Origin: Eutreptiella sp. 'Long Island Sound 2002'
Lineage: Eukaryota > Euglenozoa > Euglenophyceae > Eutreptiales > Eutreptiaceae
Direction of reading: 5' to 3'
Length of the DNA: 64,000 nucleotides
Assembly: GCA_964036045.1 (NCBI GenBank)
Contig: OZ038382.1
Span: forward strand, 129,456,556 to 129,520,555
Shown: piece by piece, positions 2,816-62,181 of the stretch
Position numbering within the stretch: the first letter of the stretch is position 1
Layout of the letters: every line of letters starts with the position of its first letter
The notes under the pieces: model-generated
What the model was told of the DNA's origin: nothing
Seen by the model: the letters and a program-made list of their open reading frames with translations, nothing else
Database searches by the model: none
Program-made: the position numbers and the translations under genes

Positions 2816-3640
2816 GAAAACGAGGTATGACAACCAAGTATGTTACGGCCCCATGCGTCCTACATATCGTATCCACCGCTACACATACGTGGATGAGAAA
2901 ACCAAGTATGTTGCCAAGGAGGGCGCCCAAGGGACAACACCGCACGCAAGAAAGGACGACGAACCGCCACGCACGTCAAAAGGCATGCCCGCAAACACAA
3001 ACCACAACCATATATCCCCCACATTTCTTCCTCCATAGGCCCCGACCGCCGCGAGATACACGAAAAAAGAAAATTTAACAAAAGCGCAAAAGGTATGGGG
3101 GGGCCACGGACAAAGGGGAAACAATGAAAAGGCGAACAAGCGAAGCCCACCAACCACGGGGAAACAACGGTATGGCGAGCAAGTATGTTAACAATGCGAG
3201 GGAGGGCGCCAAAGGGACGGACCACGCACACACGCACACACATAAACAAGACCGCAAGGAGCGAGAAGACGGAGACAAGAGCAAGGAAAAACAAGGTATG
3301 AAACCCCACACCGCCCCGCCCGCAAACACACACACGCTCTCGCTATAGGGAATGGCCACGTACCACGGGGAAACAATGGTATGGAGGTATGACGAACAAG
3401 TATGTTAAAAATGCGAGGGAAGGCGCCAAGGGGACGAAAACACAAACGTACACAAGGCCGCAAGATGCACGAAGACGGAGACAAGACAAAGGAAAGACAT
3501 GGTATGCAACCCCACCCCCGCCCCACCCACAAACAAGCACACGCTTTGTCTATAGGGGACGGCAACAAGAAGCGGCACAAGGTACGACAAGTATGGTGAA
3601 AAAAAAAGAAACACGAAACCGCCTTCCACGGGCGGGGTGA
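2816..3640. repeat. degenerate tandem repeat marked by AAGTATGTTA
   Basis: The phrase AAGTATGTTA followed by a GGCGCCAAGGGGAC-like phrase recurs near 2,839, 3,181 and 3,399, with A-rich spacers rich in CACA runs. Spacing is irregular (about 340 and 220 bp), so this is an old or partly deleted array. No coding signal was recognised. Confidence 0.55.
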
Positions 3641-4732
3641 ACTGGGAGCCCGGCGGGGCCTGTGGAGGGAGGGGGAGGTGGACGTGGGGCGGCAGTGGCG
3701 TGCCTGGCGGTGCCGGGGGGAGCAAGAGCGGTGGTGGCGGGGGCTTGGGGTGGGGGTCGTGTACAGCCTGAGGGGGGAGGGGGAGGTGGACAAGGGGCGG
3801 CGGTAGCGCTCGTGGTGGTGCCCGGGGGAGTGAGAGCGGCGGGAGCGGGGTCCCGGGCGGTCGTGGTGGCGCCTCGGGGAGCAAGATCGGCCCGAGTGGG
3901 TGGTTGAGGCGCGGTGGCGGTGTGGGGATTGTGGGCACTGGGGGCAGGTGTGCCGTGCTGGGGGGGAGCGTGAGCGCCGCCGTTTGCGGGACCGGGCCTC
4001 ATCGCTCGAGTCGGGCCAGTCAGGAGGCGTCGGCGGGTCCTGGGGGGCCTCGCGTGGTGCCGCCTGGTACTGGGGGAGGGGGGGAGGGCCCCCATCGTCC
4101 ATGGATCCGCCACGTAGGGGTGTGGTGGCGCCAGCGGCTGGTGGTATGGGTGGAGTGACTGTCCCTGGCAGGGTTGGGCCTGGGGGGCCCCTTCGGCGTG
4201 AACGTGGTTACCGGGGGGATACGGTTCCTGGTACGGGGGGGGTGGCTGGTACCGGGGGGTTGGCCCCTGCTGGTAGGTGGGGTAAGCGGGTGGAGTGCTC
4301 GATGACTGCCATCCCATACGCTGGTGCTGTTCGTGCACGGGGGGTTGTGGCCTGGTGGGGTAGGGTGGTGGGCAGTGGTAGTGGTGGTGGTGGTAGCGGT
4401 GGTGGTGGGGCCGCTGGTGGTGGTGGCGTTGGTAGTGGTGCGGTTGGTGTTGCGGGTAATTCCCTAGGACCCCTTCTGCGTATTCCGGTCTGCCTTGTGG
4501 GGGTTGGGGGTCGGGCATCGTGCGTAGCCCCTGGGGCTGTACTATTTGGTGGGCAGGGGGGGCGAGTCGGGGGCCGGGCTTGACGGTGACGGTGGTCGAG
4601 GGGTCCCACGTCGCTTGGTCGGTTTAGCCGGCGGTGGTGGTGGTCTGTGGGAGATGGGGAAGTTGACGATGGTTTGGACGGGGTCGTGTTGGGTGGCCGC
4701 CTCTGCGGTGGCGGTGGCTGCTGGTGGGAGGG
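3641..4732. other. GC-rich low-complexity block, coding status unclear
   Basis: On the minus strand the block reads as frames rich in Pro, His, Thr and Gln, with a histidine-rich patch from a GGTGGT run near 4,375-4,440. On the plus strand it reads as Gly-rich. Such open frames are expected in GC-rich DNA poor in stop codons. No domain, start context or splice site supports a gene. It could be the 5' part of the composite element whose 3' end is at 8,017, but no junction is visible. Confidence 0.4.
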
Positions 4733-7580
4733 GGGCACACGAACACACACACATCCCAACACCCCAGCCAGGAGTGGCGGGGCGCAGCCGAAACCCGAGC
4801 CGGAACACACACAAACACACCACACACCCCAGCCAGGAGTGGCGGGGTACCAGCGGAGGGCGCACACAAACACACACACGCCCCAACACCTCAGCGAGGA
4901 GTGGCGGGACGCAGCAAGAACCCGAGCCCAAGCACACACGCCCACACCACACACCCCAGCCAGCAGTGGCGAGGTACAACCGGAGCAGGCACACCAGCAC
5001 ACGCACACCCAAACATTCCAGCCAGGAGTGGCGGGGCGCAGCCGAAATGCAAGCCAAAGCACACACAGCCAGGGCGCACACCCCAGCCAGGAGTGGCGGG
5101 GTACGAGCGGAGCGGGCACACGAACACACACATACCCCAACACCCCAGCCAGGAGTGGCGGGGCGCAGCCGAAACTCGAGCCCAGACACACACACACGCA
5201 CCACACACCCCAGCCAGGAGTGGCGGGGAACAAGCAGAGCGGGCACACGAACACACACACACCCAAACACCCAAGCCAGGAGTGGCGGAGCGCACCCGAG
5301 ACTGAAGCCCAAGCATACACACCCACGCCACAGACCCCAGCCAGGAGTGGCGTGGTACAAGCAGAGGGCGCACAAGAACACACACCCAGCCCAACACCCC
5401 AGCCAGGAGAGGCTGGGCGCGGCCGAAACCAGAGCCGAAACACACCCACCCACACCACACAGCCCAGCCAGGAGTGGCGGGGTACAAGCGGAGCGGGCAC
5501 ACAAACACGCACACACCCCACCACCCCAACCAGGAGTGCCGGGGCGCAGCAGAAACCCGAGTCCGAACACACACACACACACCACACACCCCAGCCAGGA
5601 GTCGCGTGCACAAGCGGAGCGGGCACACAAACACACACACACCCCAAAACCCCAGCCAGGCCTGGCGGGGCGCAACCAAAACCCGGGCCCAAAGACATAC
5701 CCACGCGGCACACTCCAGCCAGGAGTGGCGGGGTACAGGCAGAGGGAGCACACGAACACACACACGCCCCAACACCCCAGCCAGGAGTGGCGGGGCGCAG
5801 CCAGAACCCAAGCCCAAGCACACACACCCACACCACAAACCCCAGCCAGCAGTGGCCGGGTACAAGCGGAGCGGGCACACGAGCACACGCGAACCCCAAC
5901 ACCCCAGCCAGGAGTGGCGGGGCGCAGCCAAGACCCAAGCCAAAGCACACACACCCGCGGCGCACACCCCAGCCAGGAGTGGCAGGGTACAAGCGGAGCG
6001 GGCACACAAACACACACACACCCGGACACTCCAGCCAGGAGTTGCGGGGCGCAGCCGAACCCGAAGCCCAAATACACACACACGCACCACACATCCCAGC
6101 CAGGAGTGGCGTGAACAAGCTGAGCGGGCACACAAACACACATACACCCCAACACCGCAGCCAGGAGTGGCGGGGCGCAGCCGAGACCCAAGCCCAAGCA
6201 CACACACCCACGCCGCACACCCCAGCCAGGAGTGGCGGGGTAAAAACAGAGGGCGCACAAGAACACACACACACCCCAACACCCCACCCAGGAGAGGCGG
6301 GGCGCAGCCGAAACCCAAGCCCAAGCACACACAACCACGCCGCACACCCCAGCCAGGAGTGGTGGGGTACAAGCGGAGTGGGCACAAGAACACGCACACA
6401 CCCCAACACCACAGCAAGGAGTGGCGGGGCGCACCCAAAACCCGGGCCCAAGCACACACACCCACGCCGCACACCCCAACCAGGAGTTGCGGGGTACAAG
6501 CGGAGCGGGCACACGAACACACACAAACCCCAACGACCAGCCTGGAGTGGCGGGGCGCAGCCGAAACCCGAGCCCGAGCACACACACGCACGCCGCACAC
6601 CCGAGCCAGGGATGGCGGGGTATAAGCGGGGCGCGCACACAAGCACACACACACCGAAACACCCCAACCAGGAGTGGCGGGGCGCAGCCGAAACCGGAGC
6701 CCAAGCACACACACTGACGCCGCACACGCAAGCAAGGAGTGGCGGGGTACAAGCGCAGCGGGCACACGAACACGCACACACCCCAACACCACAGCCAGGA
6801 GTGGCGGGGCACACCTGAAACCCGGGCCCAAGCACACACACCCACGCCGCACACCCGAACCAGGAGTGGCGGGGTACAAGCGGAGCAGGCACAAGAACAC
6901 AGACACACCCCAACACCCCGGCCAGGAGTGGCGGGGCGCAGCTGAAACCCCAGCCCAAGCACACACACCCACACCACACACCCCAGCCAGGAGTGGCGGG
7001 GTACAAGCGGAGCGGGCACACAAACACACAAACACCCCAACACCCCAGCCAGGAGTGGCGAGGCGCAGTCGAAACCCGCGCCCGAGCACAGACAGGCACG
7101 CTGCACACCCTAGCCAGGAGTGGCGGGGTATAAGCGGGGCGCACACACAAGCACACACACACCCCAACACCCCGACCAGGAGTGGCGGGGCGCAGCCGAA
7201 ACCCGAGCCCAAACACACACACACACACCACACACCCCAGCTAGGAAAGGCGGGGTACAAGCAGAGCGGGCACACGAACACACACACACCCCAACACCCC
7301 AAACAGGAGTGGCGGGGCGCAGCCGAAACCCGAGCCGAAGAAAACACACCCACACCACACACCCCAGCCAAGAGTGGCAGGGTACAAGCGTAGCGGGCAC
7401 ACAAACACGCACACACCCCAACACCCAAGCCAGGAGTGGCGGGGCGCACCCGAAACCCAGGCCCAAGCACACACACCCACACCGCACACCCCAGCCAGGA
7501 GTGGCGGGGTACAAGCGCAGCGCGCACACAAACACACACCCACCCCATTATCCCAGCCAGGAGCGGCCGGGCGCAGCAGA
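4733..7580 (+). repeat. CA-rich satellite of about 126 bp carrying the same 19-bp core (VNTR type 2)
   Basis: About 22 units of roughly 125-130 bp. Each unit contains two copies of CCAGCCAGGAGTGGCGGGG, one followed by CGCAGCCGAAACCC-like sequence and one by TACAAGCGGAGCGGGC-like sequence. They are separated by CA-rich spacers with ACACACAC runs. The core lies in the same orientation relative to the downstream (CCTA)n module as it does in the type 1 array at 41,963-43,345. Outside the core the two satellites share little. The giant minus-strand open frames here (up to about 1,000 codons) are artefacts of the period and composition. Confidence 0.92.
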
Positions 7581-7624
7581 AACCCGGGCCTAAACACAAC
7601 CTGGACCCACACACAAACACCACA

Positions 7625-8017
7625 CAACAGTAGGAAACCCAGTGTCGTTAGCCCGGGCGGAGAGTGCGACATTCAAGCGCCTCGGAACCCCAGTACCAAG
7701 AACATGCATGCATGCCTTTGGAACGGGATACGCCAGGAAGTCCGGTGAACCTCTAGGGTTCCGCCCAAAGGAGGGGATGTGCGCAAGCACGGGGGCACAC
7801 CCTCCCGGTGAGACAAGCACGTCACGCTCGCGGCGATCAGCCCTCCCGGTCTTGCCTGGGGCTGGTTTGTTTGGGGCCAACAGTCAGGTCTAGCGGGAAG
7901 TAAGCCGCCTCCCCTCCTCACGCGCGGAACCTCTTCCGGTTCGGCACGGGGGCGACGCCAGGGGGAACCATGGGGCGCCTCTCCACGACCGAGTGCGCCT
8001 ACCTACCTACCTACCTA
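7625..8017 (+). mobile_element. 3' module and (CCTA)5 tail of a composite retroelement, copy A
   Basis: This segment matches 43,489-43,983 (same strand) and 59,013-59,490 (opposite strand) nearly base for base, except for a deletion of about 100 bp near 7,645. All three copies end in a CCTA microsatellite, here five units at 7,998-8,017, and all have a core-bearing satellite upstream. The tail abuts the coding sequence of a LINE reverse transcriptase on the opposite strand, at a site that itself reads CACCTAGG. That suits target-primed reverse transcription primed at a short TAGG match. I could not find the matching 5' target-site duplication, so the 5' limit of this copy is open. Confidence 0.8.
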
Positions 8018-17911: not shown

Positions 17912-17916
17912 CTTGT
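17912..17916. repeat. target-site duplication CTTGT, left copy
   Basis: CTTGT at 17,912-17,916 is repeated at 31,029-31,033, just outside the two LTRs. If the final T is counted as LTR sequence, the duplication is CTTG (4 bp) and the LTR would be TG...TA instead of TG...TT. Joining the flanks at this duplication restores a continuous host reading frame. Confidence 0.85.
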
Positions 17917-20276: not shown

Positions 20277-20287
20277 CCCCCCTTCTC
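20277..20287 (-). promoter_or_regulatory. polypurine tract
   Basis: Immediately upstream of the 3' LTR on the element strand lies GAGAAGGGGGG, directly followed by the LTR start TGAAGCC. A purine-only run in this position is the expected primer for plus-strand DNA synthesis. Confidence 0.85.
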
Positions 20288-20671
20288 AGAGCGTTGTTAC
20301 CGCTCGGAAGTCATTGAAGAGAGGACGGGAGGACCCCAATGGGCTCCAACCCCCCCCCCCATGTCCCAGGGACACATGGAGGCCCCACACACGTCGTAGG
20401 CGTCCCCCACGCCCCAAAGGGAGGGGTGAGGACACTGATAATCGGTGCCCTACGCCATATCCCGTCTCCTCCTGATCTACAACATGGACCAAGGGGATCA
20501 AAGATAGAGAAACGTCGTCGATCGATCTAAATACGTATACCACGATGAAATATATATGTGGAGATCGAGTGAAGGGGGTATATGGCCAATCAAGGCCCAA
20601 AAATCCCCAGATGGACGTCCTCACCCGTCTCCCAAGCACAGAAACAAACAAAGATGCCAAAGGGGAATCCA
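20288..20671 (-). other. 3' untranslated region of the LTR element
   Basis: Lies between the integrase stop and the polypurine tract on the element strand. A short C-run-bearing stretch at 20,347-20,360 is the only notable feature. No gene is supported. Confidence 0.6.
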
Positions 20672-25724: not shown

Positions 25725-28367
25725 CTAGACTTGGCTTCCCGCAGCCCCTTCCGACTGCGATCCGCCAGGACCTTGTCCACCACGTTGCTGGGCTTTGAGT
25801 TCCTCCAACGTCCTCAACATGTCCTCAGCAACCTCCTCGATCGACCTCACTCGTCGGTCTTGGCCAGGTCCACCACCATAGCCTCTTCCTCCGCCTTTTC
25901 CTTGGCCTTTGCCTTGGCTATTTCCCCCGTCTCCGCCCTTCGCCTTCCAATCGGAAATCCGCTGCTCCTTGGGCTTATTCTCGGGGTGGGCGGCGAAGTA
26001 GGCTTTCTTGTCCGCCTCATACACCTTGCACTGACGGTGGTTGTGTGCATGGTTGTTTCCCTTGCCATAAAAGACACAGCACCCGTCGTGCTGAGACCTG
26101 TACTCCCCGAACGAGAGATGTGGGTTCCTGATCCTCCTTGGCTCATTGCTCTTCTTGGGTCCCAACGGGCTCCATCTGGACCGATCCTGCCCATGGTCCC
26201 TCACGTTGTGCGCCACAAACGCGGAGAAGTGGGCCTCCTGGTGATCCTCCCGGGACCATGTCGAGTGGTCTTGGCCACTTCCACTACCATTCTCCGCGGA
26301 GTTGGCCGTGTCCTCCTGGATCTGCCGATGATGGCGGTCTTCTCGGTGGCCTCGTTGTCCATGACCATGTCGATCCTGCACGTGGGCCTTGTTCTTCGCA
26401 TTGAGCTTCAACTCCACCGTGATGTACTTCACGATCTCGTCCAGGGTCATGCGGGCGAAGATGACCTGCATCTTCAGCGGCTCCCCGCGCCTCCACTCCA
26501 CGTTGTTGAGGCGCAGCAACCTTTGCCCCATGGAGTCTCCAAATACCTCCACGTACACGGCGTTCTTCAGTCCCAACATCCGGTTGGGCTCGCCCAGGTT
26601 CCTCCTGAAGAACTCCATGATACCCGCATGGGTATCCTCTGCCGCCATGATCCTCACCGCCACCCGCTTCTTGGCTCTCTTCTTTTCCTCGTCCTCCACT
26701 CGCCTCTTCCAATGGCCGGGGAGGATGTCCTTCAGCAGGTGGCGGATCTCACTGGACTCGTTCCAGTCTCCCACCAGCTGGACGCTCCGTCGGTACTTCC
26801 GCGGGTACCGGTTCCACTCCCGGACTGGCAACTCACCGCGGTCGAGCTGCAGCGGGATGGACCACAAGTCCTCAAGCTTCTGGTTCGGAGCGTCCACCCA
26901 CTCCTGATCCTCCAACCACTGGATGCTGGCCTGCTCCGTACGGATCAGTCCTTCCCGGATCTGATCCCGCAGCTCCTCCTTCAGGTCCTGCGCCAGCCGG
27001 TGTGGGAATGTCCGGCATACCCACTTGTCCCGCGGCGCTCCCCGCATCTCACCGACGACCTCCTCGGCAAAGTCCTCCCAATCCAGGATGAAGTCATCCA
27101 GGTTGGAGGGGTTGCCATCGTAGTAGGGGATTTCGATTCCCCTGAGGTCGTCAATCCTGATGGCGTCTCCGACGTCCCCGGCCACCACTCCACCGAGACG
27201 GATACCACCTGTGGCCGGGGGGTGTGAGTACACTCCCCGTACATCCCTCTCCTCCATGGAGTGCGGTCCAGTTGAGCCTGAACCCATGGGGTTTGGAATG
27301 AAGGAAGGACTTGCTCCATCGGCCGTCCATATCCCCGTATTGGGGTCCTTCGCCCACAGGTTTCCGCTGGGATGACCTCGACCATGTCTGTCGGCGCTTC
27401 CCATGGTTCGCCCCTGCATAATCTGGCTCCGGATCTCCTCTTCCGCATAAACTGCGTGGGCAGTCGTAGTGATCGGTAGATCCCGGGCGGCATGGGACAT
27501 CTGTACCGTCAGGCTCCTCGGGTCCGTGGTTACGTGCCCTTCCCGCATGGACCCAGCCGGTGCCGTGTGTTCCCCGAGCATTGTGGATCCGCTGAACATG
27601 GGAACAAACGGCAGCGCACCCGGGTCAACACGCGGAGGCGCATAGGGTGCCTCTGCAGGGCCGCCCATGGGTTTATCCATGGCGCTCCTGAGGCTCTTAA
27701 TCCGCTCCACCAGCTCTGGTGCTGCCGGCTTTGCCGGGAGCTCAGGACCCGACGCCAGGGGTTGTGACTCCTCTAGCCTTTTCAGGTGTCCTGACATGTC
27801 CTCCACCAGGTGGAGGAGGCTGTCCACCACTCGCTGCTGCTTCGCCAGGGCCAGCTCCAGCTTGTTCCGGTACCGGTCCTGTTTCGCTCGCAGCTCCGTC
27901 ATGTCTCTCTCCGCGGCCGACTGGTCATCCAGGATCCCGGTGACGTCCTCATCTAGGCCGTCTCTCGCGTTGTCCAGGCGGTTGATGCGATGCACGATGG
28001 CGTCCATCCCCATCTTTGGGTACTTGCCCATGAGGAAGGACACGTGCTCGCAATGGCACTCAGCGTGCTTTCGGCCGGATCCGGCGCATCCCGCGGTTCC
28101 GAGCCCCTCGGACTCCTCTGCCATGGGTGTATCGCCCATGCTATCCCGCGATGGCTCCGTGTGCCGAGCCACGAGCGCCGTCCTGGCTCCGGCGGGCCTC
28201 TCCAAAGCCTCGGCGTCATGCTCCAGGCTGGGTTCTGGGGCTGTGTTTGCCCTTGTGGGCGGTCTGGCCGTCTCCTCCGACTCCGAAGGTTGCTCATAGG
28301 CTGTCCGATAGCCCTCAGAGTGCCCCTCGGAGTCCCACAGCCTGACCGGGCTGGGGTCCGTATCCAT
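25725..28367 (-). CDS. gag: gag polyprotein, 880 codons
   Basis: Open from ATG at 28,367 to TAG at 25,725. The N-terminal third is acidic and Ser/Thr/Pro-rich. Residues about 125-205 are charged and heptad-like (probable coiled coil around DMTELRAKQDRYRNKLELAL). The middle is a capsid-like helical region with FILDWEDFAEEV and WNRYPRKYRRSV. Near the C-terminus a CVFYGKGNNHAHNHRQC segment resembles the C-x-x-H/Y...H....C knuckle of plant-type gags, followed by Gly/Lys/Gln-rich RNA-binding sequence. It would form the virus-like particle. The downstream pol frame is the same frame after this single TAG, which suggests read-through or a CAG-to-TAG change rather than frameshifting. Confidence 0.85.
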   Translation of the reverse strand: MDTDPSPVRLWDSEGHSEGYRTAYEQPSESEETARPPTRANTAPEPSLEHDAEALERPAGARTALVARHTEPSRDSMGDTPMAEESEGLGTAGCAGSGRKHAECHCEHVSFLMGKYPKMGMDAIVHRINRLDNARDGLDEDVTGILDDQSAAERDMTELRAKQDRYRNKLELALAKQQRVVDSLLHLVEDMSGHLKRLEESQPLASGPELPAKPAAPELVERIKSLRSAMDKPMGGPAEAPYAPPRVDPGALPFVPMFSGSTMLGEHTAPAGSMREGHVTTDPRSLTVQMSHAARDLPITTTAHAVYAEEEIRSQIMQGRTMGSADRHGRGHPSGNLWAKDPNTGIWTADGASPSFIPNPMGSGSTGPHSMEERDVRGVYSHPPATGGIRLGGVVAGDVGDAIRIDDLRGIEIPYYDGNPSNLDDFILDWEDFAEEVVGEMRGAPRDKWVCRTFPHRLAQDLKEELRDQIREGLIRTEQASIQWLEDQEWVDAPNQKLEDLWSIPLQLDRGELPVREWNRYPRKYRRSVQLVGDWNESSEIRHLLKDILPGHWKRRVEDEEKKRAKKRVAVRIMAAEDTHAGIMEFFRRNLGEPNRMLGLKNAVYVEVFGDSMGQRLLRLNNVEWRRGEPLKMQVIFARMTLDEIVKYITVELKLNAKNKAHVQDRHGHGQRGHREDRHHRQIQEDTANSAENGSGSGQDHSTWSREDHQEAHFSAFVAHNVRDHGQDRSRWSPLGPKKSNEPRRIRNPHLSFGEYRSQHDGCCVFYGKGNNHAHNHRQCKVYEADKKAYFAAHPENKPKEQRISDWKAKGGDGGNSQGKGQGKGGGRGYGGGPGQDRRVRSIEEVAEDMLRTLEELKAQQRGGQGPGGSQSEGAAGSQV

Positions 28368-28692
28368 AGCCCCGGCGTCCTCTGCCGCGGGCTTGGGTGA
28401 CCCGCGCTTCCGGTAGCGCCAGGTCCGTCCTCAGCTGCTGCCTGAATGGCAGGTCTCCTCAGAGTCCTCCGCGGCGGAGCGGAGGTTGCATGCCTTTCGG
28501 CAGTGACGCTGACACATGGAGACCAGGTCCTCCATGTCAAGTCCTCCTCTTCCCGAACGTCGTACTTCTCTTCGGGCTTCCACTTCCGGCGTGGTCTCCA
28601 CCGAGTCCACAATACGCACCCGGGGCGTACTTGGGCAGGGCTCATAGGGGCCCAAGTCCCCGGGTCGGCGGTAGGTAGGGGCAGCAGGCACG
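28368..28692 (-). other. leader between primer-binding site and gag
   Basis: GC-rich leader of about 325 bp on the element strand. It would hold the packaging signal; no specific structure could be identified. Overlapping short frames are not supported as genes. Confidence 0.55.
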
Positions 28693-28704
28693 CCTCTGCT
28701 ACCA
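28693..28704 (-). promoter_or_regulatory. primer-binding site for initiator tRNA-Met
   Basis: One base downstream of the 5' LTR, the element strand reads TGGTAGCAGAGG. This is complementary to the 3' end of eukaryotic initiator tRNA-Met ending CCTCTGCTA-CCA. Position and sequence both fit the priming of minus-strand cDNA. Confidence 0.88.
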
Positions 28705-28705
28705 T

Positions 28706-31028
28706 AAAGAAAGTCCCTACCAGGACCGGCCCCCGCTGTGCCCCTTCCGCCTGTTACCCCTGCTGTCTTACTCCGGATCAACGATTGCATTTCTCAAACT
28801 CCAGGGTCCATAATCCAAACATATAGAAAATAAAATCCTCCTTCAACCCTGAACAGCAACCAGATCCCGCAAAAACAGCAGTAACCCAATTCACAATCCA
28901 ATCCACGCTGCGGGCTTCCGTTCAGCACACCGGTCGTCCCACGGTGGCAGGCATGTACAATAATTGCACCAAAGAGGAAAGCCCTGAAATTGGCATATGA
29001 ACACAAATAAAGCAAAGTTGGGGAAAGATCGAAACATACACAATCACAGCCATAGACCCCTCATTCCCTGGACTCAAGACCTTCCCTTGACTCACCAACA
29101 TGATGCCTTGAACCCAATCAAATAAGATGGCTGAATGCCATGTGTTAAAAGTCACTACACAAACCCCAAGAATGTGTTCACCCCCAAGCCTATAAATCCT
29201 AGCCCAATAGGGGAGGTGGCGTGTCATGGCCTAGAGTGGCACTCAGGACAATGCCCTACCCTGACATAACCTTGGTTGGACCTGGGGTCGAATTGGCTTG
29301 GAGAACTGCCCCATGAGGATGACCTCACAACATGGCAAAATCAGGCCAATCACACCATAGTGCCCAAAATTCAATTATATACTCAAAAATGCATACGGCA
29401 AACATCCAAATGCTGCATGCATGTGTCAAACCGGAAAGTAGTATACAAGGGTGATATAGACCAAAGGTCCATGCTCAAGAATATTCAATCATTGGCTCCG
29501 AAACCCCTGCGGTTATGTACATGACATGCTTCAGAAGTCAGCTCATGAGTTTGAGGCCTGATTTTGTGAGGCCTCGGGTGCCAAGCCAAAGTGACCACGT
29601 GATCCGGCATATGGTGAGGTACAACAGAGAAGCATATGCCAACATATAAGCAACATACCATAGTTCACGAATCTCTAGTCACTTTACTGTTAGCCGACCA
29701 GTTGAGCACATAAAAAACAAAAATGAGTATAAAATGAGGCCACAAACATGAAAGGATGTCCAAATACAAAGTTGTCATGATAGTATATCTCTTTGCTCAC
29801 CCATGATATCCGCTCATGGTTCAATACACAAATGATTGGAACCATTTGCGAACAGTTCCCCCACTTTGATCCCCAATCTGGCGCATGGAGATACCTTCGC
29901 CACTCATATCTACATGCCCCATGAAAATGGGAGTGCACTCATGGATCTCTTTGCCAAACATACCATGAGCAATACATACGCGGTAGACTTAGTCTAGCGC
30001 TTTGGATTTCACAATTGGGACATTGGCAAGGCCCTTGTCACGTGTGGCTCCCCATCTCTTCGGCCACACGAACATATATAACATGGGCGTGAGCATATCG
30101 AAGCACATACCATGCATATAACACATACTCTCAAAAAATGGCTCCCACCATGGTATGCCATGCCCCTCCATGGACATAACTTCACGTTGAAAATGCGTGG
30201 GAACCCAAGGAAGTATCTTTGCAACCCCAACACTCATGCAGTACACTCGAAAGTCGCAATAAAGTATTCGGTTGCACGGTTCAAGAGTTATATATCACTT
30301 TCTACCATCTTCACCATTATCCCTCCCTACACCAGGCATGTGTGCACACCAAAGGCGTTTGATGCTTCCCCAATTAAGTTGAGACCGAGGCAGTTCAGAC
30401 CCGATTCTCGAAATTGGGACTACTCGCGGTGAGCTGGAGATATGACCCTTCAAAGTGGCCTCACGAATGAACTTTGTTTCACCTATATCTCCAAGCAAAA
30501 CGAAGGGCATAACACAAGGAAGGTTGATTCGTGATCAGAAAAAGTTGTAGGACCACTCGAGACTCGTCATATCAAGTGCCGCGATGTCGAAGTCGAGAAT
30601 CCTATTCTGAAAGTCTGAAAAAATCGGGTTAATTTTGCGAGTGTACAATATGAAAATTGCGGAAGCAACGAACCCTTTACTGATGAAATCTGACCCATCA
30701 TCAGGGGTTCCGCCAAAATATCTGTAAATAACAGTTAACCATTCGGTTACCGCAAAATCGCGAGCCAACTGACAGTCGCCGATACATTGACCATCAGAAC
30801 GGAAGGCTGAAAAATTACGGAAACATTATGATAAAAAAACCCTGTTGATTCCTGATATTCTGATATATAGATCTCCGCTGGCGGCGCCTCAGTACTGAAT
30901 ATGGCCGCTCATAGCCGGAATGGTCAGGTGGATGGGAGAGTATGATATCAGCCAATGGCGGGTTGCCGGCACATAGATACACACCCCAAGCGACCCAAAG
31001 ATTGCCACGAGGGTCCGAACCGGCTTCA
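28706..31028 (-). repeat. 5' LTR (2,323 bp)
   Basis: Partner of 17,917-20,276, similar throughout, with scattered substitutions and small indels that indicate an insertion old enough to have diverged by a few percent (judged by eye). It would hold the promoter for the element's genomic RNA; I cannot point to a TATA box with confidence. Confidence 0.93.
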
Positions 31029-31033
31029 CTTGT
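31029..31033. repeat. target-site duplication CTTGT, right copy
   Basis: Second copy of the 5-bp duplication that flanks the LTR element; see 17,912-17,916. Confidence 0.85.
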
Positions 31034-41948: not shown

Positions 41949-41957
41949 CTGCGTTTG
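41949..41957. repeat. target-site duplication CTGCGTTTG, left copy
   Basis: CTGCGTTTG here is repeated at 43,984-43,992, directly after the (CCTA)4 tail of the composite element. Confidence 0.82.
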
Positions 41958-43983
41958 CACACAGGAACCTCCGCCAGGAGTGGCGAGGGACCAACCACAC
42001 CACACACCAGCCACAACCCCACCAACACACCACCGCCACACACCACACACCACACGTCACCGCCGCCAGCGGACCCCAGCCAGGAGTGGCGGGGACCGCC
42101 CACCACCACCGGCAGCGAAACCCAGCCAGGAGTGGCGGGGAGTAGCACATAGGAACCTTCGCCAGGAGTGGCGAGGGACCAACCACACCACACACCAGCC
42201 ACAACCCCACCAACACACCGGCGCCACACACCACACACCACACACCACACACCACACACCACCGCCGCCAGCGGACCCCAGCCAGGAGTGGCGGGGACCG
42301 CCCACCACCACCGGCAGAGAAACCCAGGCAGGAGTGGCGGGGAGTAGCACACAGGAACCTCCGCCAGGAGTGGCGAGGGACCAACCACACCACACACCAG
42401 CCACAACCCCACCAACACACCACCGCCACACACCACACACCACACACCACACACCACCGCCGCCAGCGGACCCCAGCCAGGAGTGGCGGGGACCACCCAC
42501 CACCACCGGCAGCGAAACCCAGCCGAGAGTGGCGGGGAGTAGCACACGGGAACCTCTGCCAGGAGTGGCGAGGGACCAACCACCCCGCACACCAGCCACA
42601 ACCCGACCAGCACACCACCGCCACACACCACACACCACACACCACACACCACACACCAACGCTGCCAGCGGACCCCAGCCAGGAGTGGCGGGGACCGCCC
42701 AGCAACCCCCGGCAGCGAAACCCAGCCAGGAGTGGCGGGGAGTAGCACACAGGAACCTCCGCCAGGAGTGGCGAGGGACCAACCACACCACACACCAGCC
42801 ACAACCCCACCAACACACCAGCGCCACACACCACACACCACAAACCACACACCACACACCACCGCCGCCAGCGGACCCCAGCCAGGAGTGGCGGGGACCG
42901 CCCACCACCCCCGGCAGCGAAACCCAGCCAGGAGTGGCGGGGAGTAGCACAAAGGAACCCGCGTCAGGAGTGGCGAGGGACCAACCACACCACACACCAG
43001 CCACAGCCCCACCAACACACCACCGCCACACACCACACACCACAAAGCACACACCACCGCCGCCAGCGGACCCCAGCCAGGAGTCGCGGGGACCGCCCAC
43101 CACCACCGGCAGCGGAACCCAGCCAGGAGTGGCGGGGAGTAGCACACAGGAACCTCCGCCAGGAGTGGCGAGGGACCAACCACACCACACACCAGCCACA
43201 ACCCCACCAACACACCACCACCACACACCACACACCACACACCACACACCACACACCACCGCCGGCAGCGGACCCCAGCCAGGAGTGGCGGGGACCGCCC
43301 ACCACCAGCGGCAGCGAAACCCAGCCACGAGTGGCGGGGAGTAGCAAAAAGAAAAAAAAAAAAAAAAAGAGCCAGCAAAGGGACAACACCACAAACCGCC
43401 CCCAAACACACCCACCCAGGACCCCAGCCAGGATTGGCAGGGTTAAAAAAACCCACACCCAACCGCGAACCGGACCCAAAGACAAACGCCGCACAACAGT
43501 AGGAAACCCAGTGCCCACAGCCCGGGCACTGAGGAAGCCCGTGCCATGCAGGTGACCCGGCCAAACGAGATCGGGAGACCGGGGGTAAGGCTGCATCCTA
43601 AGGCCTGCGCTGCTTTCTGACATGAGGCGGAGCGTGCGACACGCAAGCGCCTCGGAACCCTAGTACCAAGAACATGCATGCATGCCTTGGGAACGGGATA
43701 CGCCAGGAAGTCCGGTGAACCCCTAGGGTTCCGCCCAAAGGAGGGGACGTGCGCAAGCACGGGGGCACACCCTCCTGGCGAGACAAGCACGTCAGGCTGG
43801 CGGCGATCAGCCCTCCCGGTGTTGCCCGGGGCCGCTCTGTTGGGGGCCAACAGACAGGTCTAGCGGGACGTAAGCCGCCTCCCCTCTTCACGCGCGGAGC
43901 CTCTTCCTGTTCGTCACAGGGGCGACGCCAGGGGGAACCATGGGGCGCCTCTCCACGACCGAGTGCACCTACCTACCTACCTA
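41958..43983 (+). mobile_element. complete composite VNTR retroelement, copy B (2,026 bp, 5'-truncated)
   Basis: Bounded by a perfect 9-bp duplication (CTGCGTTTG). Internal order: about 1.4 kb of the 190-bp core-bearing satellite, an A-rich run at 43,347-43,367, a core variant CCAGCCAGGATTGGCAGGG near 43,422, the conserved module 43,489-43,967 and (CCTA)4 at 43,968-43,983. It starts inside the satellite, so compared with copy C it lacks the 5' region, the usual result of incomplete target-primed reverse transcription. No coding sequence for RT or endonuclease is present, so it needs another element's machinery. This layout mirrors the SINE-VNTR-Alu (SVA) design of hominid genomes, without sequence kinship. 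Confidence 0.85.
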
Positions 43984-43992
43984 CTGCGTTTG
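43984..43992. repeat. target-site duplication CTGCGTTTG, right copy
   Basis: Right copy of the 9-bp duplication; see 41,949-41,957. It lies immediately after CCTA unit four, so element and tail are inserted as one piece. Confidence 0.82.
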
Positions 43993-45060: not shown

Positions 45061-47637
45061 GTGTATTTTTTGCACAAAAACGAACACGTATGGTTTGAGC
45101 TATACAAAAGCTGCTATTCGCAACTAGGTGGTGAATCTCATATTTCTCGCATACGGCCGATTTCGGATGGAATCAAGCCTGCATTGTCGATACAGGGGCT
45201 GGGAATTTCCAAATTTGAAGGGTGGGGGAGGGGATAACTCCGGAAAACATACTCTTTGTGGTATAGTTTGAAAAAAAGATAGCATTTTTGCGTGTAGCTG
45301 GTTTCATGATGTTTGGACCCCATAACATCCTAGGTGAGGCAAAGTGCCACAGCGTACCAATGCCGAGATGAGGCACATGCATCGCGAGCACAGCGCACAC
45401 TCTATCCCCACGTGCGCGCTGCGTGCACCATTCCTCTGACATACCTGTGTTTCTTGGTTTTAGCTGTGGAGAGCAAGAAAGGTGAACAACCATACCCCCA
45501 ACAAACGCAGCGGTGACAACCCTAGCGTTTTAACGAAATAAATCACACAAACACAATGCAAAAGTGTGTCATGACAGTAACATACCTGAGAGGCGGGTTG
45601 TCCGCCTGCTCTGTTGTTTGGCTACTTGTTACACTGTTGTTCCTAATGTTGGGTCCTAATGGGTTGGAAAAGCCTAGCTTTTTGTAGAGAACCTCTAGCT
45701 TATTGTACTTTAGAAAGCGTAAGCCAATAACTTGCAACATTGTTCACGAGACCAAACGCTTCAGACGATATGTGAATTTGCAGCTAACTCAAGGATGGCT
45801 CCACGCAATTGAATTCCTTTTGAATCATGGTTCGGTCATTTTACGCAACATTTTGAATTTTGGCCAAAACGGCCGTGTCGTAAAACGCCGTGCTCGAAGC
45901 TGATGAGGACTTGGTCTGGGAACCAAGGCATTATGAAATTAAAGACCTTGGAGGACATCCTGCATTGATTCTCTTATTTTTCAAGCTTATCCTTTATTTT
46001 ATATAATATTATCTTGTGGGCACACGACACATATTTTGATTTTGCAGACGCGTTCATGCATATGGGTTTGCCATGGGATCCAAGGGATATGGGCGCTGGA
46101 TTATCAACATTGTGGCCTAATTTTGACATTTTCCCCACTCCATGGGCAGTTCACATATGCCCCATTCTTCGTGTAGGAAGAGACCTGACCTGGCCTGTTG
46201 GAGTTTGTTGAGGAATGGTGCTTAGAGCGGCCAAATGTGCTTTTTTCCTTTTGTCTCTCTGTGGATATGGTGCTGCAGCCATATTCCCATGTTGTCCTTG
46301 TGTCCTTCTCACGAATTTTGCTGCTATGATCTTTGGTTGTGGCCTTTGTTGATTGGCTTGAATGAAATGAATTTCAAGTTAACTTAATGGCCGGGAGTTA
46401 ACTTGTACATCAAAGGTTTCACGTTAGATTACACGGAGGATAGGTGTACAATTTTGTGTGCATTTGCTGCCGTCGTCTTGCCTCACGGAATAGTGTGAAA
46501 GGGTGCAAGGGTTCACTAGATAGAAGCCCGTTTTGCCCATTCCCCACAAGAAGCTAGCGGATTGTTGGAGATTTGTAATCAAAAACCTGTGCATACATCC
46601 GGCAACAAAAAGCCAAAGAAGGTTGATAGCAGAGGTGTTCTTGCAAACCCCACACGCGAGTGTTGCGGAAGTTCTCCTAACATAAAGTGGACTAGTATGC
46701 ATAATGGATTGTTGATTGAGAAATACACAGAAAAAATCAGGGTATTTTCCAAAATATTAATTTGCAAAACGGAATGCCTTCGGAAAACAAATTCCTAAAG
46801 ACAGGTCATTTCCACAACTACCAGCTTCCCAACCCTGCACTGCCACCAGAAAGAATATCGAAAGTGATATCTAAGACCCCAAAAGACCTAACAACTTCTT
46901 GCTATGGGAGACCTGGAAACGTTGCGTATGAAGGCACTTGATGGGTACACTTTGCTCCACTAGCGGTTTTGAAAACAAAATCTATATGTTATTTGAAATA
47001 CCTCCTGGTGTAGAGTATCGGTTTCTTTGAAATGAACAAAACCTATTTTTGACGCATTGTATTGTAAAATGACTTAGAGTAAGAAAACGTCACTACCATG
47101 TCTTCCTTGGAGGACTTGATCCAGGCCAAGCCCGCCCTAAAAGCTTTTTGATGATGTGGAGACTAACTTAATCATTTTCATCACTCTTTTGAAGTTTAAA
47201 GTGCACTTTCTCAAAGTAACTAGGGGTCTAACCCTAGCCCCTCATGAAGCTCACCCCTACCAGTCAACTGAGCGGAGGTATCTTCCTTCATGGCGGTAAT
47301 ACCAAAATAAAGTAGGCACTTCATGCCGAAGGCCTTGTAGGTTAAGCCCAGTGGTCCCCCACCTCAAGAACCCTATACTCAACTGGTTCTACCACTTATT
47401 GTGGTTCTACCTTCTAAATGATTCTGAGTTCAGTTGCTTGGCCATGCTGGCCAAGCCATATCCTGTGTCTGGGCTAATTCCTATGCCCCAGAGTCCCAAC
47501 CAACTCCTTCTTATCCAAAAGAGTGCACATGAAGTGCTTGGTGCTACCTTGGAAGCCTGAGTCATCCAGGTTTTCACACAAAAATCATTTGTTTTATCCA
47601 TTTGTGATTGAATCTTTGTACTTAAGCCTACTTTGTA
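45061..47637. other. AT-rich single-copy DNA, no gene seen
   Basis: No open frame over about 130 codons, no recognisable motif, tRNA or repeat. A frame at 46,014-46,211 (+) and several on the other strand are not supported. Introns of an unseen gene cannot be excluded. Confidence 0.45.
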
Positions 47638-48833
47638 TAGGTAGGTAGGTAGGTCATCTCAGGTCTGGGATTGCCACCCAAGGGGCTCTTACCAAGGGAC
47701 TTTTGCTCGCCCACCAACAGGCCTACTTCACGTGCCCCCACAAAGCGGCTTTTCCACATGGGGGAAGGGCGTGGTTGCCGCGAGCAGTACCCTACTGCGG
47801 GTTCTGCCCAGAGAGGTAATCCATGTTCGACCAACTTCTCACATTCCTCTCCTTCGGCTGGATGATACGTGGGGGAGGGTCCCATAGCACATCCTCATCA
47901 GCCTCCGGATTCTGGGGCCCAGGGGCCAAGAGCGAGGCGAAGGCTCTGTCCTGTGGGCACCCCCACCTGGGTTGGTTTTCAGTAGGCGTGAGACGACTTG
48001 AAGAAGCACGGGCTACGGGACTCCCATGCCGCGACGTGTATTCACGCCTCCTGACTCGGTCGAGCTTGCGCTCTCTCGGGGGGCCAGGGGTGCGAAGTAG
48101 TTCGTTGCGGTTGGTTGGTCATTTGTATAATGGTAGAGTTGCGGCGTTGTGTTGTACCCGTTGGTATGGTCGTCAGGGGGCGTGGCGCACCATGGTGTCC
48201 CCCACCCGTGGGACGCCGTCCCCGTTTGAACCCTTGCATGTCCGGCTGGTTTGGTGTTGGCCGGCTTGCGTGTGGTCTGTTTATTGTCGGGTCGTTTTCT
48301 CTGCAGCAGTTTTGTTGGTACATGGTTGTGTTGGCCGCCTTACAGCCGGCTGGTTCCTCGTGCGGTCTATCGCGCTGCAGCCCGCGCCAGCGCAGCTGGA
48401 TGTTGTCCTGGTTGTCCTCTCCGTTAGTTCTGAGGTTTGTTGCGGCCGGCCTGTCCGATATGGCGGTCATTGTGTTGCGACCGGGGCGTGCCCGGCAAGT
48501 TGTTTTGGTTCGCTGTTGTCGTAGCCGCCAGTCGTCGGCTTGTCTGGGGTCGTGCGGTGGATCGTTTGGGCGTGGCTGGCCGCGTTTGGTCGCTGTATGC
48601 CGTCCCCTACGCTGTTTGTTTTCTGTTGGGTGTGTTTTATCGTGGCTTGTTTGTTTTTTAGGTTTCCAAAAACCAAAGGAGAAATGACAAAACAGGCACA
48701 ACAGGAAGAATCCTGCAGGCCACACGATGCAATTAAACGCTTAGGGTTGTTTATAACTCGCAATAGGGTTGTTGAAACGCTTAGGTTTGCTTTGCATTCC
48801 CTTCACTTCGGCATTCACACGATGAATGGTGAG
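47638..48833 (-). mobile_element. (CCTA)-tailed element D, about 1.2 kb, no satellite
   Basis: On the minus strand this segment ends in (CCTA)4 (plus-strand TAGG units at 47,638-47,653), preceded by a 3' region unlike the module at 7,625-8,017. It abuts the tail of composite E at 48,834. A minus-strand frame at 48,042-48,725 is rich in Arg, Thr, Gln and Pro and shows no domain. The tail and strand match the other composites, so a shared retrotransposition machinery is likely. No target-site duplication was found, and the 5' limit is inferred from the neighbour. Confidence 0.5.
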
Positions 48834-49424: not shown

Positions 49425-50643
49425 GACCCCACACCCACACACCCGCGCCCAAGGCATGTGGGTGACGGACCCCAACAGAACGCCCAGAGGGCGGGCAGTC
49501 GGGGGAGGGGGAGCGCCTGACCACAGACGCCCCTCACAACGGCGGAAGGCACCCCCCCCAGGGACACCCTTCCTCCACCCCCACAGCGAGCAACGCCGGC
49601 CCGCAAGGGCGCACCCTGTGGGGATTGGGCTGGGTCCCCACGCCCGCACCGACCGCACCCGGGACACACGGGTCGCGGAGCCCAGGCCGCCCGCTCCAGG
49701 GGACGGGTGGCCGGGTGAGGGACAGCGCCTGACACCAGACGCCCCTCACAACGCTGGCAGGCCAGCCCCCCCCCGGGGACAGCCCTCGTCCACCCCCGCG
49801 GCACGCAGCCCCCACAGGGCATGCAGGCCAAGGGGACAGTGTTGGGCCCCCACACCCACACACCGACGCCCACAGCACGTGGGTGGCGGACCCCAACAGC
49901 CCGCCCAGTGGGCGGGCAGTCAGGGGAGGGACAGCGCCTGACCTCAGACGCCCCTCACAATGGTGGAAGGCACCCCCCCCGGGGACGCCCTTCCGCCACC
50001 CCCACAGCGAGCAACGCCGGCCCGCAAGGGCGCATGCTGTGGGGTTGGTGCTGGGTCCGCATGCCCGCACCAACCGCACCCGGGACACACGGGTCGCGGA
50101 ACCCCGGCTGTCCGCTCCAGAGGACGGGCGGCCGGGGGAGTGACAGTGCCTGACACCAGACGCCCCTCACAACGGTGGCAGGCCACCCCCCCTGGGGACG
50201 GCCCCCAACGACCCCCGCGGCACGCAGCGCCCACAGGGCATGCATGCCAAGGGGACAGTGTTGGGCCCCCACACCCACACACCCGCGCCCACAGCAAGTG
50301 GGTGGCGGACCCCAACAGCCGGCCCAGTGGGGGAGGGACAGCGCCTGACCTCAGACGCCCCTCACAATGGTGGAAGACACCCCCCCCGGAAAGCCCTTCT
50401 GCCAACCCCACAGCGAGCAACGCCGGCTCGCAAGGGCGCACACTGTGGGGTCGGTGCTGGGTCCCCACGCCCGCACCGACCGCACCCGGGACACACGGGT
50501 CGCGGAACCCTGGCTGCCCGCTCCAGAGGACGGGCATCCGGGGGAGGGACAGCGCCTGACACCTGACGCCCCTCACAAGGGTGGCAGGCCTACCTCCCCG
50601 GGAACGGCCCCCCACCACCCCCGCGGCAGGCAGCCCCTACAGG
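49425..50643. repeat. 420-bp satellite made of two related halves, block 1
   Basis: The phrase GACAGTGTTGGGCCCCCACAC recurs at about 49,838 and 50,257 (period about 419 bp). Each unit has two halves of about 210 bp marked by GGGAGGGACAGCGCCTGAC, one followed by CTCAGACGCCCCTCACAATGG and one by ACCAGACGCCCCTCACAACGG. The array breaks at 50,643 and resumes, in the same register, at 62,851, with the LINE between. The long frames on both strands are artefacts. Confidence 0.9.
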
Positions 50644-59009: not shown

Positions 59010-62000
59010 GGGTAGGTAGGTAGGTGCACTCGGTTGTGGAGAGGCACCCCTTGGTTCCCCCTGGCGTCGCCCCTGAGACGAACAGGAAGAGGCTCCGCGC
59101 GTGGAGAGGGGAGGCGGCTTACATCCCGCTAGACCTGTCTGTTGGCCCCCAACTAAGCGGCCCCTGGCATCACCGGGACAGCTGATCGCCGCCTGCGTGA
59201 CATGCTTGTCTCGCCGGGAGGGTGTGCCCCCGTGCTTGCGCACGTCCCCTCCTTTGGGCGGAACCCTAGAGGTTCACCGGACTTCCTGGCGTATCCCGTT
59301 CCCAAGGCATGCATGCATGTTCTTGGTACTTGGGTTCCGAGGCGCTTGGGTGTCGCACGCTCCGCCTCGAGTCCCAAAGCAGCGCTGGCCTTAGGATGCA
59401 GCCTTACCCCCGGTCTCCGGATCTCGTTTGGCCGGGTCACCTGCATGGCTCGAGCTGCCTCAGTGCCCGGGCTGTGGGCACTGGGTTTCCTACTTTTGGC
59501 TTGCGTTTGTGGTTGGGTCCGGGTTGCGGTTGGTCCTGGGTTTTGTTAACCCCTGCCAGTCGTGGCTGGGGTCTTGGGTGGGTGTGTTTGGGCTCGGTTT
59601 GTGGTGTTGTCCCTCTTTTGCCGGCTGTTTGTGGTGTTCCTGGTTGGGCTTTGGTGTCGGCCTGCTTTCGGGACGTGTGTGGTTTCGTGCGCGTTTCCCT
59701 TGCCCCCCACCCTTTCCGGTTCTGGTGTGCGGTGTGGGCGTGCGTGCTGGGCCCAGATCTCGGCTGTGCCCCGCCCTTCCTGGCTGGGTTGTCGGTGTGT
59801 TTTTTTTGCGCCTTTTTTTTTTCCGGTTGCTGGTCGTCCCTGTCCCGGGCCTTGTGGTCTCTCCCCCCTTTTCTTTTCTTTCGGGCCGGGCTTCCGGGCT
59901 TTTTTTTTTTTCCGTGGTGTGTGTCTGCTTGTTTCGGTGCCCCTTTTCCCGATGGGCCGCCGTTCCTGGCTTGGTGTTCCCGGTTTCTGGCTGGGTTGTC
60001 CCCCTCTGCCTCTTTGGGGGTCCTGTCTTCGGTGCCCTCTCGGTGGGGGGTTTGGCCATCTGCTGCGTTGTTCGCGGGCGGTTTGGTGGCTGTTGGCTTT
60101 TTTCGCGCGCCCCCCCCCTCCCCCCCCCTTTTGGTTTTTTCTTTTGGGCGGGGGGATGGGCGGCCTGGCTGTTCCTCCCTTTGCCTTTCCTCGGCTGGCG
60201 CTTGCTCTGTGGCTGGTGTGTGGTGTGGTTGGTCCGTCGCCACTCCTGGCGGAGGTTCCTGTGTGCTACTCCCCGCCACTCCTGGCTGGGTTTCGCTGCC
60301 GGTGGTGGTGGGCGGTCCCCGCCACTCCTGGCTGGGGTCCGCTGGCGGCGGTGGTGTGTGGTGTGTGGTGTGTGGTGTGTGGTGTGTGGCGGTGGTGTGT
60401 TGGTGGGGTTGTGGCTGGTGTGTGGTGTGGTTGGTCCCTCGCCACTCCTGGCGGAGGTTCCTGTGTGCTACTCCCCGCCACTCCTGGCTGGGTTTCGCTG
60501 CCGGTGGTGGTGCGCGGTCCCCGCCACTCCTGGCTGGGGTCCGTTGGCGGCGTTGCTGTGTGCTGTGTGGTGTGTGGCGGTGGTGTGTTGGTGGGGTTGT
60601 GGCTGGTGTGTGGTGTGGTTGGTCCCTCGCCACTCCTGGCGGAGGTTCCTGTGTGCTACTCCCCGCCACTCCTGGCTGGGTTTCGCTGCCGGTGGTGGTG
60701 GGCGGTCCCCGCCACTCCTGGCTGGGGTCCGCTGGCGGCGGTGGTGTGTGGTGTGTGGTGTGTGGTGTGTGGCGGTGGTGTGTTGGTGGGGTTGTGGCTG
60801 GTGTGTGGTGTGGTTGGTCCCTCGCCACTCCTGGCGGAGGTTCCTGTGTGCTACTCCCCGCCACTCCTGGCTGGGTTTCGCTGCCGGTGGTGGTGGGCGG
60901 TCCCCGCCACTCCTGGCTGGGGTCCGCTGGCGGCGGTGGTGTGTGGTGTGTGGTGTGTGGTGTGTGGCGGTGGTGTGTTGTTGGGGTTGTGGTTGGTGTG
61001 TGGTGTGGTTGGTCCCTCGCCACTCCTGGCGGAGGTCCCTGTGTGCTACTCCCCGCCACTCCTGGCTGGGTTTCGCTGCCGGTGGTGGTGGGAGGTCCCC
61101 GCCACTCGTGGCTGGGGTCCGTTGGCGGCGGTGGTGTGTGGTGTGTTGTGTTCGGTGTGTGGTGTGTTGGTGGGGTCCCTCGCCACTCCTGGCGGAGGTT
61201 CCTGTGTGCTACTCCCCGCCACTCCTGGCTGGGTTTCGCTGCTGCTGGTTGTGGGCGGTCCCCGCCACTCCTGGCTGGGGTCCGCTGGCGGCGGTGGTGT
61301 GTGGTGTGTGGTGTGTGGCGGTGGTGTGTTAGTGGGGTTGTTGCTGGGCGCGCACTCGTCCATCCGGACGGCGGCTGGTGTGCGTGTGTGTTCGTGTGCG
61401 TGCTTTGCTTGGCCGGGTCGGGCGGGCCGGCCTCCCGGGCGCGTTCTGGTGCGCCTCACCTTCTCCTTTGGCCGCTTTGTCTTTCTGCTTTGCTTGGCCC
61501 CCTCCGGGCTGGGGTTGCCCCCCTCTCTTTCGCTGCTGTTGCCGTTCCTCGTTGGTTGTTTTTCTCGGCCTCCCGCTGCCTGGCTCTCCGTGCGCTCGCG
61601 CCTCGTTTGTGTCTCCCGCTTGGCTGTTGGCTGCCCTTTGGTGTTTGCTCCCCCGCCCCCCTCCTCTTTTGTGTCTCGCGGTATTCGTCGCTCCTGCTTG
61701 GTGCCTTGGTGTTTTCCTCTGTGCGCCCCCGTTGTCTCCGGCTTTCTCTGGTTTGCGGCCCCGGGTGCCCCGGGCCTCGGCGCTTGCGTTGTTTACTTTG
61801 TTGGCCTTCCGCTTCTCGGCTCTCCGTGCGCTTGTCCCTCTTTTGTGCTTTCCGCCTGGCTGTTAGCTGCTCCCGCGTGGTTGGTTCCCCCCCCCCACTC
61901 TCCGTGTCTCGCGGTTTTCGTTCCTGCCGCTCGGTGCTGTGTGCCCTGTTGTGCTGTGCGTCCCTGGGTGCGGTGCTGCGCCGCGCTGCTGCGCGTTGTG

Positions 62001-62169
62001 TCGCCTGGTGTTGTGCTGTCGTGTGCTGTGTTGCGCTCGTTGGTCTGGATGTGGCCCATCAAACTGAACGTTCGCTCGACATGGCAAGCAGAGCGTGGTC
62101 GTCGGACAAAGAAAACAGCAATGCTACTCAACACAGGAAAATCGTCTTTTTTGGCATGCCACCATCGTT
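59010..62169 (-). mobile_element. composite VNTR retroelement, copy C (3,160 bp), nested in the LINE
   Basis: Bounded by a perfect 12-bp duplication. On the minus strand the order is: 5' region of about 830 bp (62,169-61,341, GC- and CA-rich, no domain), the 190-bp core-bearing satellite (61,340-60,225), a Lys/Pro-rich low-complexity stretch (60,220-59,580), a core variant near 59,565, the module (59,490-59,025) and (CCTA)3 at 59,013-59,024. Removing it joins ...STIT-stop-AEIRLH to DHPAISPGDTRALS in one frame. No RT or endonuclease is encoded. The 1,024-codon plus-strand frame across it is a composition artefact. Confidence 0.9.
60225..61340 (-). repeat. 190-bp core-bearing satellite inside copy C (VNTR type 1)
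   Basis: Five to six units; GGTCCCTCGCCACTCC recurs at about 60,433, 60,621, 60,817 and 61,011 (period 188-196 bp). Unit length varies mostly through the number of TGTGGTG steps. Near identity to the arrays at 1-1,716 and 41,963-43,345 indicates recent spread. Confidence 0.92.
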
Positions 62170-62181
62170 TCGTGCAGCCGG
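62170..62181. repeat. target-site duplication TCGTGCAGCCGG, right copy
   Basis: Right copy of the 12-bp duplication that defines copy C; see 58,998-59,009. Confidence 0.88.

Follow-up and report, generated by a model that had tools for sequence, protein, structure and literature searches.

Satellite arrays in a euglenid genome appear to travel within non-autonomous retroelements that share the 3' end of a LINE

Near-identical satellite arrays lie dispersed in the genome of the euglenid Eutreptiella sp. 'Long Island Sound 2002', and the 64,000-nucleotide stretch analysed here (the window; contig OZ038382.1, positions 129,456,556 to 129,520,555) raises the question of how such arrays spread. 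A reading of the sequence alone had described one array, copy B, as a satellite followed by a module and (CCTA)4, the whole bracketed by a perfect 9-bp repeat, and this arrangement was borne out at 41,958-43,983 (Table 1). In a search of the whole window, CTGCGTTTG occurred on the plus strand only at 41949 and 43984, and its complement occurred once, at 45502. Tandem Repeats Finder placed the start of the array at 41957 (in a row of period 397) and reported 6.6 copies of period 202 with 91% matches at 42025-43346. The array contains 12 perfect hairpins of the form CCCC.A.GCCA[GGAG]TGGC.GGGG or CCTC..GAGG. Homology of the module to other copies begins near 43390, about 100 bp to the left of the start first assigned to it, and the module opens with an imperfect copy of the satellite hairpin. 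An A-tract like that of the copy B junction is present in the LINE-type copy L007, beside GAGCCAGCA. Rfam returned no match in the window at the gathering threshold. The comparisons reported here suggest that copies A, B and C of the window (winA, winB, and winC) are very probably members of a large non-autonomous retroelement family, parasitic on a euglenid LINE through a shared 3' end, with satellites being spread along with it.

Table 1. Features of the three window copies, and target-site duplications of copies here and elsewhere in the genome
Feature	Position in window	Strand	Length	Basis or identity
Copy A: LINE coding segment, inverted, directly left of satellite	3633..4736	-		86% to L009 LINE
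Copy A: 127-bp satellite array, 22.6 units	4733..7598	+		Tandem Repeats Finder
Copy A: shortened module and CCTA tail	7599..8017	+		BLAST
Copy B: target-site duplication, left copy, CTGCGTTTG	41949..41957	+	9 bp	sequence match
Copy B: ~200-bp satellite array, about 7 units	41958..43350	+		Tandem Repeats Finder, hairpin count
Copy B: A-rich junction	43347..43389	+		sequence
Copy B: module (LINE 3' end)	43390..43967	+	~580 bp	95.7% to LINE copy L009
Copy B: (CCTA)4 tail	43968..43983	+		sequence
Copy B: target-site duplication, right copy	43984..43992	+	9 bp	sequence match
Copy C: module and (CCTA)n tail	59011..59600	-		BLAST
Copy C: LINE 3' region upstream of module ('mid590')	59601..60205	-		80% to LINE copy L009
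Copy C: ~200-bp satellite array, 11 hairpins	60208..61350	-		Tandem Repeats Finder, hairpin count
Copy C: 5' domain of non-autonomous family, truncated at about 62041	61399..62041	-		87% to L069
Short duplication, winB			9 bp	
Short duplication, L078			12 bp	
Short duplication, L017			14 bp	
Short duplication, L048			14 bp	
Short duplication, L061			15 bp	
Short duplication, L075			17 bp, 11 exact within it	94%
Long duplication, L003			51 bp	94%
Long duplication, L043			161 bp	99.4%
Long duplication, L014			348 bp	98.3%
Long duplication, L013			966 bp	96.8-98.7%
Long duplication, L054			about 1,806 bp, left start not seen	99.4% over 174 bp compared
Long duplication, L011			3,254 bp	99.8-100%

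The module was claimed to occur three times in the window, at about 7.6, 43.5, and 59.0 kb, and BLAST found all three. The query 43489-43985 matched 59498-59011 on the minus strand (copy C, 94%) and, in copy A, 7620-7658 (87%) and 7656-8014 (93%), with 98 query bases missing between them. The three copies were also said to encode no reverse transcriptase (RT), in agreement with the absence of Pfam matches in the part of all frames that was tested, namely, 10 long frames, 7 from the window copies and 3 from the genomic copy L002. For copy A, the module had been recognized correctly while the adjoining inverted LINE segment had been missed; this segment may have arisen through a 5' inversion of the twin-priming kind or may represent an insertion of its own. 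No target-site duplication was found in the flanks of copy A. For copy C, a 12-bp candidate duplication (62170-62181) was rejected because family homology stops at about 62041, leaving 128 nt unexplained. Another satellite array of the kind seen in copies A to C occupies window positions 1-1709 on the minus strand, with no module in view and its 3' end beyond the window, and its C/A-rich neighbor at 1710-2040 did not match the 5' domain.

The sequence-only reading treated the module as an orphan, which it proved not to be. Judged from the alignments, copy B's module is the 3' terminus of a LINE that resides in the same genome and encodes RT. Many other module copies are preceded by a kilobase-scale common sequence unlike the satellite, and the L009 locus, which matches both the copy B module and mid590 of copy C, contains an RVT_1 domain (Pfam, E 1.5e-15) and a match to the APE-type family Exo_endo_phos (E 3.6e-5; 24.1 bits, just under the Pfam cut-off of 24.5). 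The endonuclease and RT lie in successive open stretches of the same frame, separated by one stop codon in the sole copy read. Among PDB structures, LINE-1 ORF2p chains match the RT (E about 1e-10), and of the 7,995 candidates scored in the protein collection, 137 were matches. Downstream of the RT is a stretch that resembles RNase H and zinc-knuckle regions by eye and has no Pfam match, followed by further frames, the 3' region, the module, and the CCTA tail. No intact autonomous copy of the LINE has been found so far, as L009 is interrupted by the stop codon and its 5' end was not located. Elsewhere in the window (10565-12223, minus strand), a frame with an Exo_endo_phos match (E 1.6e-8) apparently belongs to another LINE.

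With the 497-bp module as query, a first look at the 2.28-Gb genome produced 1,645 candidates, and the 40 that were scored had 96-100% identity. The last 100 bases of the module produced 412, again with 40 scored; neither figure is a verified copy number. All copies were retrieved via the module or the end of copy B and ranked by similarity to it, a biased sample, and the second query included the first two bases of copy B's own duplication. The sample comprises 67 distinct places, 58 of them from 60 loci after removal of two repeats plus 9 more; since their flanks agree, L035 and L041 could be a single locus. Upstream of the module, 24 places carry the ~200-bp satellite, 1 a 127-bp-type array, and 33 LINE-type sequence, and 9 are truncated or untypable; as copies were fetched via the module, this typing is silent on satellites elsewhere. 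Among the satellite copies, the junction with the LINE 3' region falls at any of three positions. A common 5' start, based on two copies, was seen in the independent insertions L034/L002 and L070; the 5' domain after it is CA-rich, with no match in the LINE pieces read. The longest non-autonomous form seen runs from GGGGTWTTTAGCAAAGG through the 5' domain, a CA-rich stretch, the ~200-bp satellite, the LINE 3' part, and the module to (CCTA)n. The complete 5' domain was traced through to the tail in one copy, L002 (about 3.2 kb), which is without a clear duplication. A search with the 5' domain of copy C gave 3,370 first-look candidates genome-wide, and among the 43 matches listed, 40 were at 93-100% (one being copy C itself) and 3 at 75-77%. 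The predicted variable 5' truncation was confirmed: the shortest copy, L061, starts about 0.16 kb before the tail and the longest, L011, about 7.1 kb before it. Because the searches used the 3' end, its constancy is in part built into the sample.

Target-site duplications flanked 12 of the 23 copies with a mapped 5' end. The expectation of flanking duplications around a single mobile unit was therefore upheld, although narrowly, in that most copies do not lack them. Five copies proved to be truncated within the satellite (winB, L017, L078, L014, and L013), and each of them carried a duplication. In the short test, none of 506 mismatched flank pairs had an anchored match of at least 9 nt; in the long test, 2/506 passed at 70-85% identity and 1/506 at 90%. 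Right flanks in the duplication test were mostly no longer than 1.4 kb (longer for L011 and L054), and the long test left out L078, which has little left flank. The 5' ends were set by BLAST limits, two of which were moved on inspection (L053, from 403 to 388; L080, from 204 to 94). The 11 copies without a duplication (L002, L016, L022, L024, L025, L040, L053, L059, L079, L080, and L083) were searched over 0.9 to about 4 kb of 3' flank. An 8-nt match in L016 was left uncounted as borderline, 8 nt being reached by 1/506 mismatched pairs. L002, counted as negative, can be read as a duplication of CCATGG or as a loss of 6 nt from the target: a related unoccupied site, a paralogue in the window (26775-27670 and from 27677 on, within 26775-29123), reads CCATGG GTTTAT CCATGG, and in L002 the element sits between both CCATGG motifs. 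Outside the 23, winA, winC, and L007 showed no clear duplication, and the LINE-type copies L007 and L009 had none in the flanks examined (the latter with its 5' end not located). Helitrons and Helentrons are not known to make target-site duplications, and a carrier of that type was rejected on the basis of the 12 duplicated copies.

The presence of duplications had been anticipated, for a range of 7-20 bp, whereas lengths of hundreds to thousands of base pairs had been missed: 5 of the 12 exceed 100 bp. This spread, from about 10 bp to more than 3 kb, is an unexpected and unusual result. Human L1 duplications are usually 5-30 bp, and those above 100 bp make up at most 10% of recovered HeLa events, while large ones accompanied 4/7 inserts in XPA- and 21/23 in XPC- cells, for which a distant second nick was proposed (excerpts of PMC5223499). 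The euglenid insertions are like those of human L1 in cells deficient in nucleotide excision repair (NER) in their very long duplications but differ in being natural insertions rather than products of a repair defect in cultured cells. Kilobase-long duplications are rare for L1 in repair-proficient cells (excerpts of PMC5223499), and the long flanking repeats could instead be older tandem duplications or assembly errors; the calling of 5' ends from BLAST boundaries and the unseen left start of the 1,806-bp case leave room for this. Such an origin is nevertheless unlikely, as the limits of the duplications coincide with the element ends at left and right wherever a case of at least 51 bp was seen in full (five cases: L003, L014, L043, L011, and L013), and the identities, about 94-99.9%, are those of events of different age. 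Either the LINE enzyme or host repair may be responsible for the long duplications made by insertion.

The L011 target also carried ACCTACCT at the tail junction, which suggests priming by base pairing between target and tail, with weaker cases in L017 and L003. A host membrane-protein gene (L032, 6281-7333, minus strand) lies inside the 3,254-bp L011 duplication, indicating that the insertion duplicated a gene. It is 100% identical to a transcriptome-derived protein over 80% of the query and 65% identical to a Eutreptiella gymnastica protein (62% of the query), with four protein matches in all, as would fit a euglenid host near Eutreptiella. An interspersed repeat beside CCTACCTACCTA (window 47077-47639, minus strand) is shared at 81% with the L007 5' flank, L025 lies directly after a CCTA run, and in L008 another module end follows some 260 bp downstream; these three cases possibly reflect a target preference.

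Human SVA had been offered as the precedent for these elements, and the analogy holds for the layout, a 5' domain, VNTR, and 3' domain moving as one non-autonomous unit, but fails for the 3' part, which is LINE-derived. By organization the elements are VNTR-composite retroelements, with a 5' domain, a central VNTR, and a 3' domain; strict SVA membership was rejected on account of the LINE-derived 3' part and the (CCTA)n tail, against the CT hexamer, Alu-like, VNTR, SINE-R, and poly(A) parts of SVA. A true SVA-like composite of unrelated parts, having no sequence in common with its helper and mobilised only via a simple tail, would share this layout with its short-repeat tail and the lack of RT in the frames tested, but it is very improbable, being contradicted by a 3' domain that is the LINE's own 3' end for about 0.5-1.2 kb. 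Since the module is the LINE 3' end, the closest model is a LINE derivative with its partner's tail, and SVA is a structural analogy. In SINE-LINE pairs, the non-autonomous element ends in the 3' sequence of the partner LINE. The euglenid element likewise shares its 3' tail with a LINE but, unlike those SINEs, is about 3.2 kb long (L002) and has a satellite inside. The kinetoplastid LINEs SLACS, CZAR, and CRE are autonomous and site specific in spliced-leader genes, with tandem repeats near the 5' end. Both groups are LINEs of Euglenozoa; in contrast, the euglenid insertions are scattered, and their LINE has an endonuclease of the Exo_endo_phos (APE) type.

The hominoid SVA, LAVA, PVA, and FVA elements are non-autonomous, consist of a 5' domain, central VNTR, and 3' domain, and are mobilised in trans by a LINE, the SINE-R part at the 3' end of SVA being of retroviral origin (excerpts of PMC4432496). 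The euglenid elements have the same non-autonomous three-part plan, with mobilisation in trans presumed here, but share their 3' end with an RT-encoding LINE, end in (CCTA)n, and have a VNTR made up of hairpins that resemble one from the LINE's 3' region (the primate parts were not compared by sequence). In the oyster, Cg_HINE Helentrons disperse satellite-like arrays inside non-autonomous DNA transposons (excerpts of PMC7492417). Satellite-like arrays are spread within non-autonomous mobile elements in both cases; the 5' truncation, CCTA tail, and target-site duplications in the euglenid point to reverse transcription, unlike DNA transposition. Microsatellites of lepidopteran RTE elements belong to the related literature (excerpts of PMC2887409). 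Titles and opening lines of abstracts on retroelements of Euglena, euglenids, and Eutreptiella, under the wordings used and in open journals, held nothing on satellite-carrying LINE derivatives, and a search for duplication terms found none in PMC10584689.

The satellites themselves resemble the LINE to different degrees. The best matches of the 127-bp unit of copy A to the L009 LINE 3' region (oriented 1203-1336) are 74-78% identical, as if a segment from that region had been amplified to form this array. Against the LINE pieces, the ~200-bp unit gave only short matches (54-71 bp, 76-78%, E 3e-6 to 3e-5). The longer hairpin is repeated in both satellites, and the second unit type, with CCTC/GAGG, is a matched change, amounting to a covariation of one C-G to T-A exchange between the two unit types. 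Exact hairpins numbered 12 in copy B (mean of 50 shuffles, 0.00), 11 in copy C (0.06), and 16 in copy A (0.06), with none in the copy B module or the L009 3' part; pair counts over both strands were not used because the palindromic core is counted twice. A script located the module-start hairpin site in 46/60 loci (two repeats included). The hairpin was perfect with the loop GGAC in 22 of the 46 and mostly imperfect or altered in the rest, copy B and L009 among them. When parts of satellite units were folded as RNA, their stability did not stand out significantly from that of shuffled sequences (z -1.84, 6/200 shuffles as stable; z -0.82, 35/200). Our guess is that the hairpin may serve as a signal for the LINE protein. 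Two further tandem arrays in the window, at 49427-50643 and 62850-63998, have periods of 421 and 419 bp. Ordinary tandem repeats spread by recombination or rolling circle, with the module adjoining by chance, would suit the differing unit numbers of the 127-bp and 200-bp arrays, as in ordinary satellites, the array at the start of the window, and a sample retrieved via the module that says nothing of arrays elsewhere, but this is scarcely credible given that satellite, 3' part, and tail lie jointly inside target-site duplications in five independent copies. A long fixed satellite array with a chance neighbor was rejected because the duplications enclose satellite, module, and tail.

Most likely, then, the satellite and tail move as one unit by target-primed reverse transcription in trans. 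5' truncation, target-site duplications, and inverted segments are hallmarks of this process, and the grounds at hand are the shared 3' end, the RT-encoding relative, the truncation, and the duplications outside the satellite. Satellite, module, and tail had been proposed to be a single RNA-copied unit; the single mobile unit is upheld by those outlying duplications, while we infer the RNA intermediate, as we do the action in trans, the distant second nick, and the twin-priming inversion of copy A. The LINE protein should bind the non-autonomous RNA in trans because that RNA ends in the LINE's own 3' end. It would then nick the target and copy the RNA from the CCTA tail by target-primed reverse transcription; copying would often stop early, giving 5' truncation, sometimes inside the satellite. 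A second-strand nick about 10 bp to more than 3 kb away would yield duplications of that length. The satellites would originate by tandem amplification inside the element and then disperse with it. It is possible, though rather doubtful, that the LINE machinery works without the usual close coupling of the second nick, so that insertions duplicate ~10 bp to several kilobases and seed segmental duplications, and also that the satellites are arrays of the LINE 3' hairpin offering many landing sites for the LINE protein, hence the success of the parasite.

Mobilisation by the LINE would provide a concrete, testable route by which near-identical satellite arrays disperse through the genome of a protist, and the elements extend the plan of a satellite-bearing retroelement beyond primates. 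Should the kilobase-long duplications hold across the genome, many new insertions would duplicate host DNA as well, which would be a natural parallel to human L1 activity without nucleotide excision repair. Among other repeats of the window, 17916-21108 and 28705-31029 match sequence upstream of the L070 insertion, and pieces of a Ty3-like LTR element (RNase H, integrase zinc domain, and protease, with a chromodomain just under the cut-off) are present at 20672-25432 on the minus strand.
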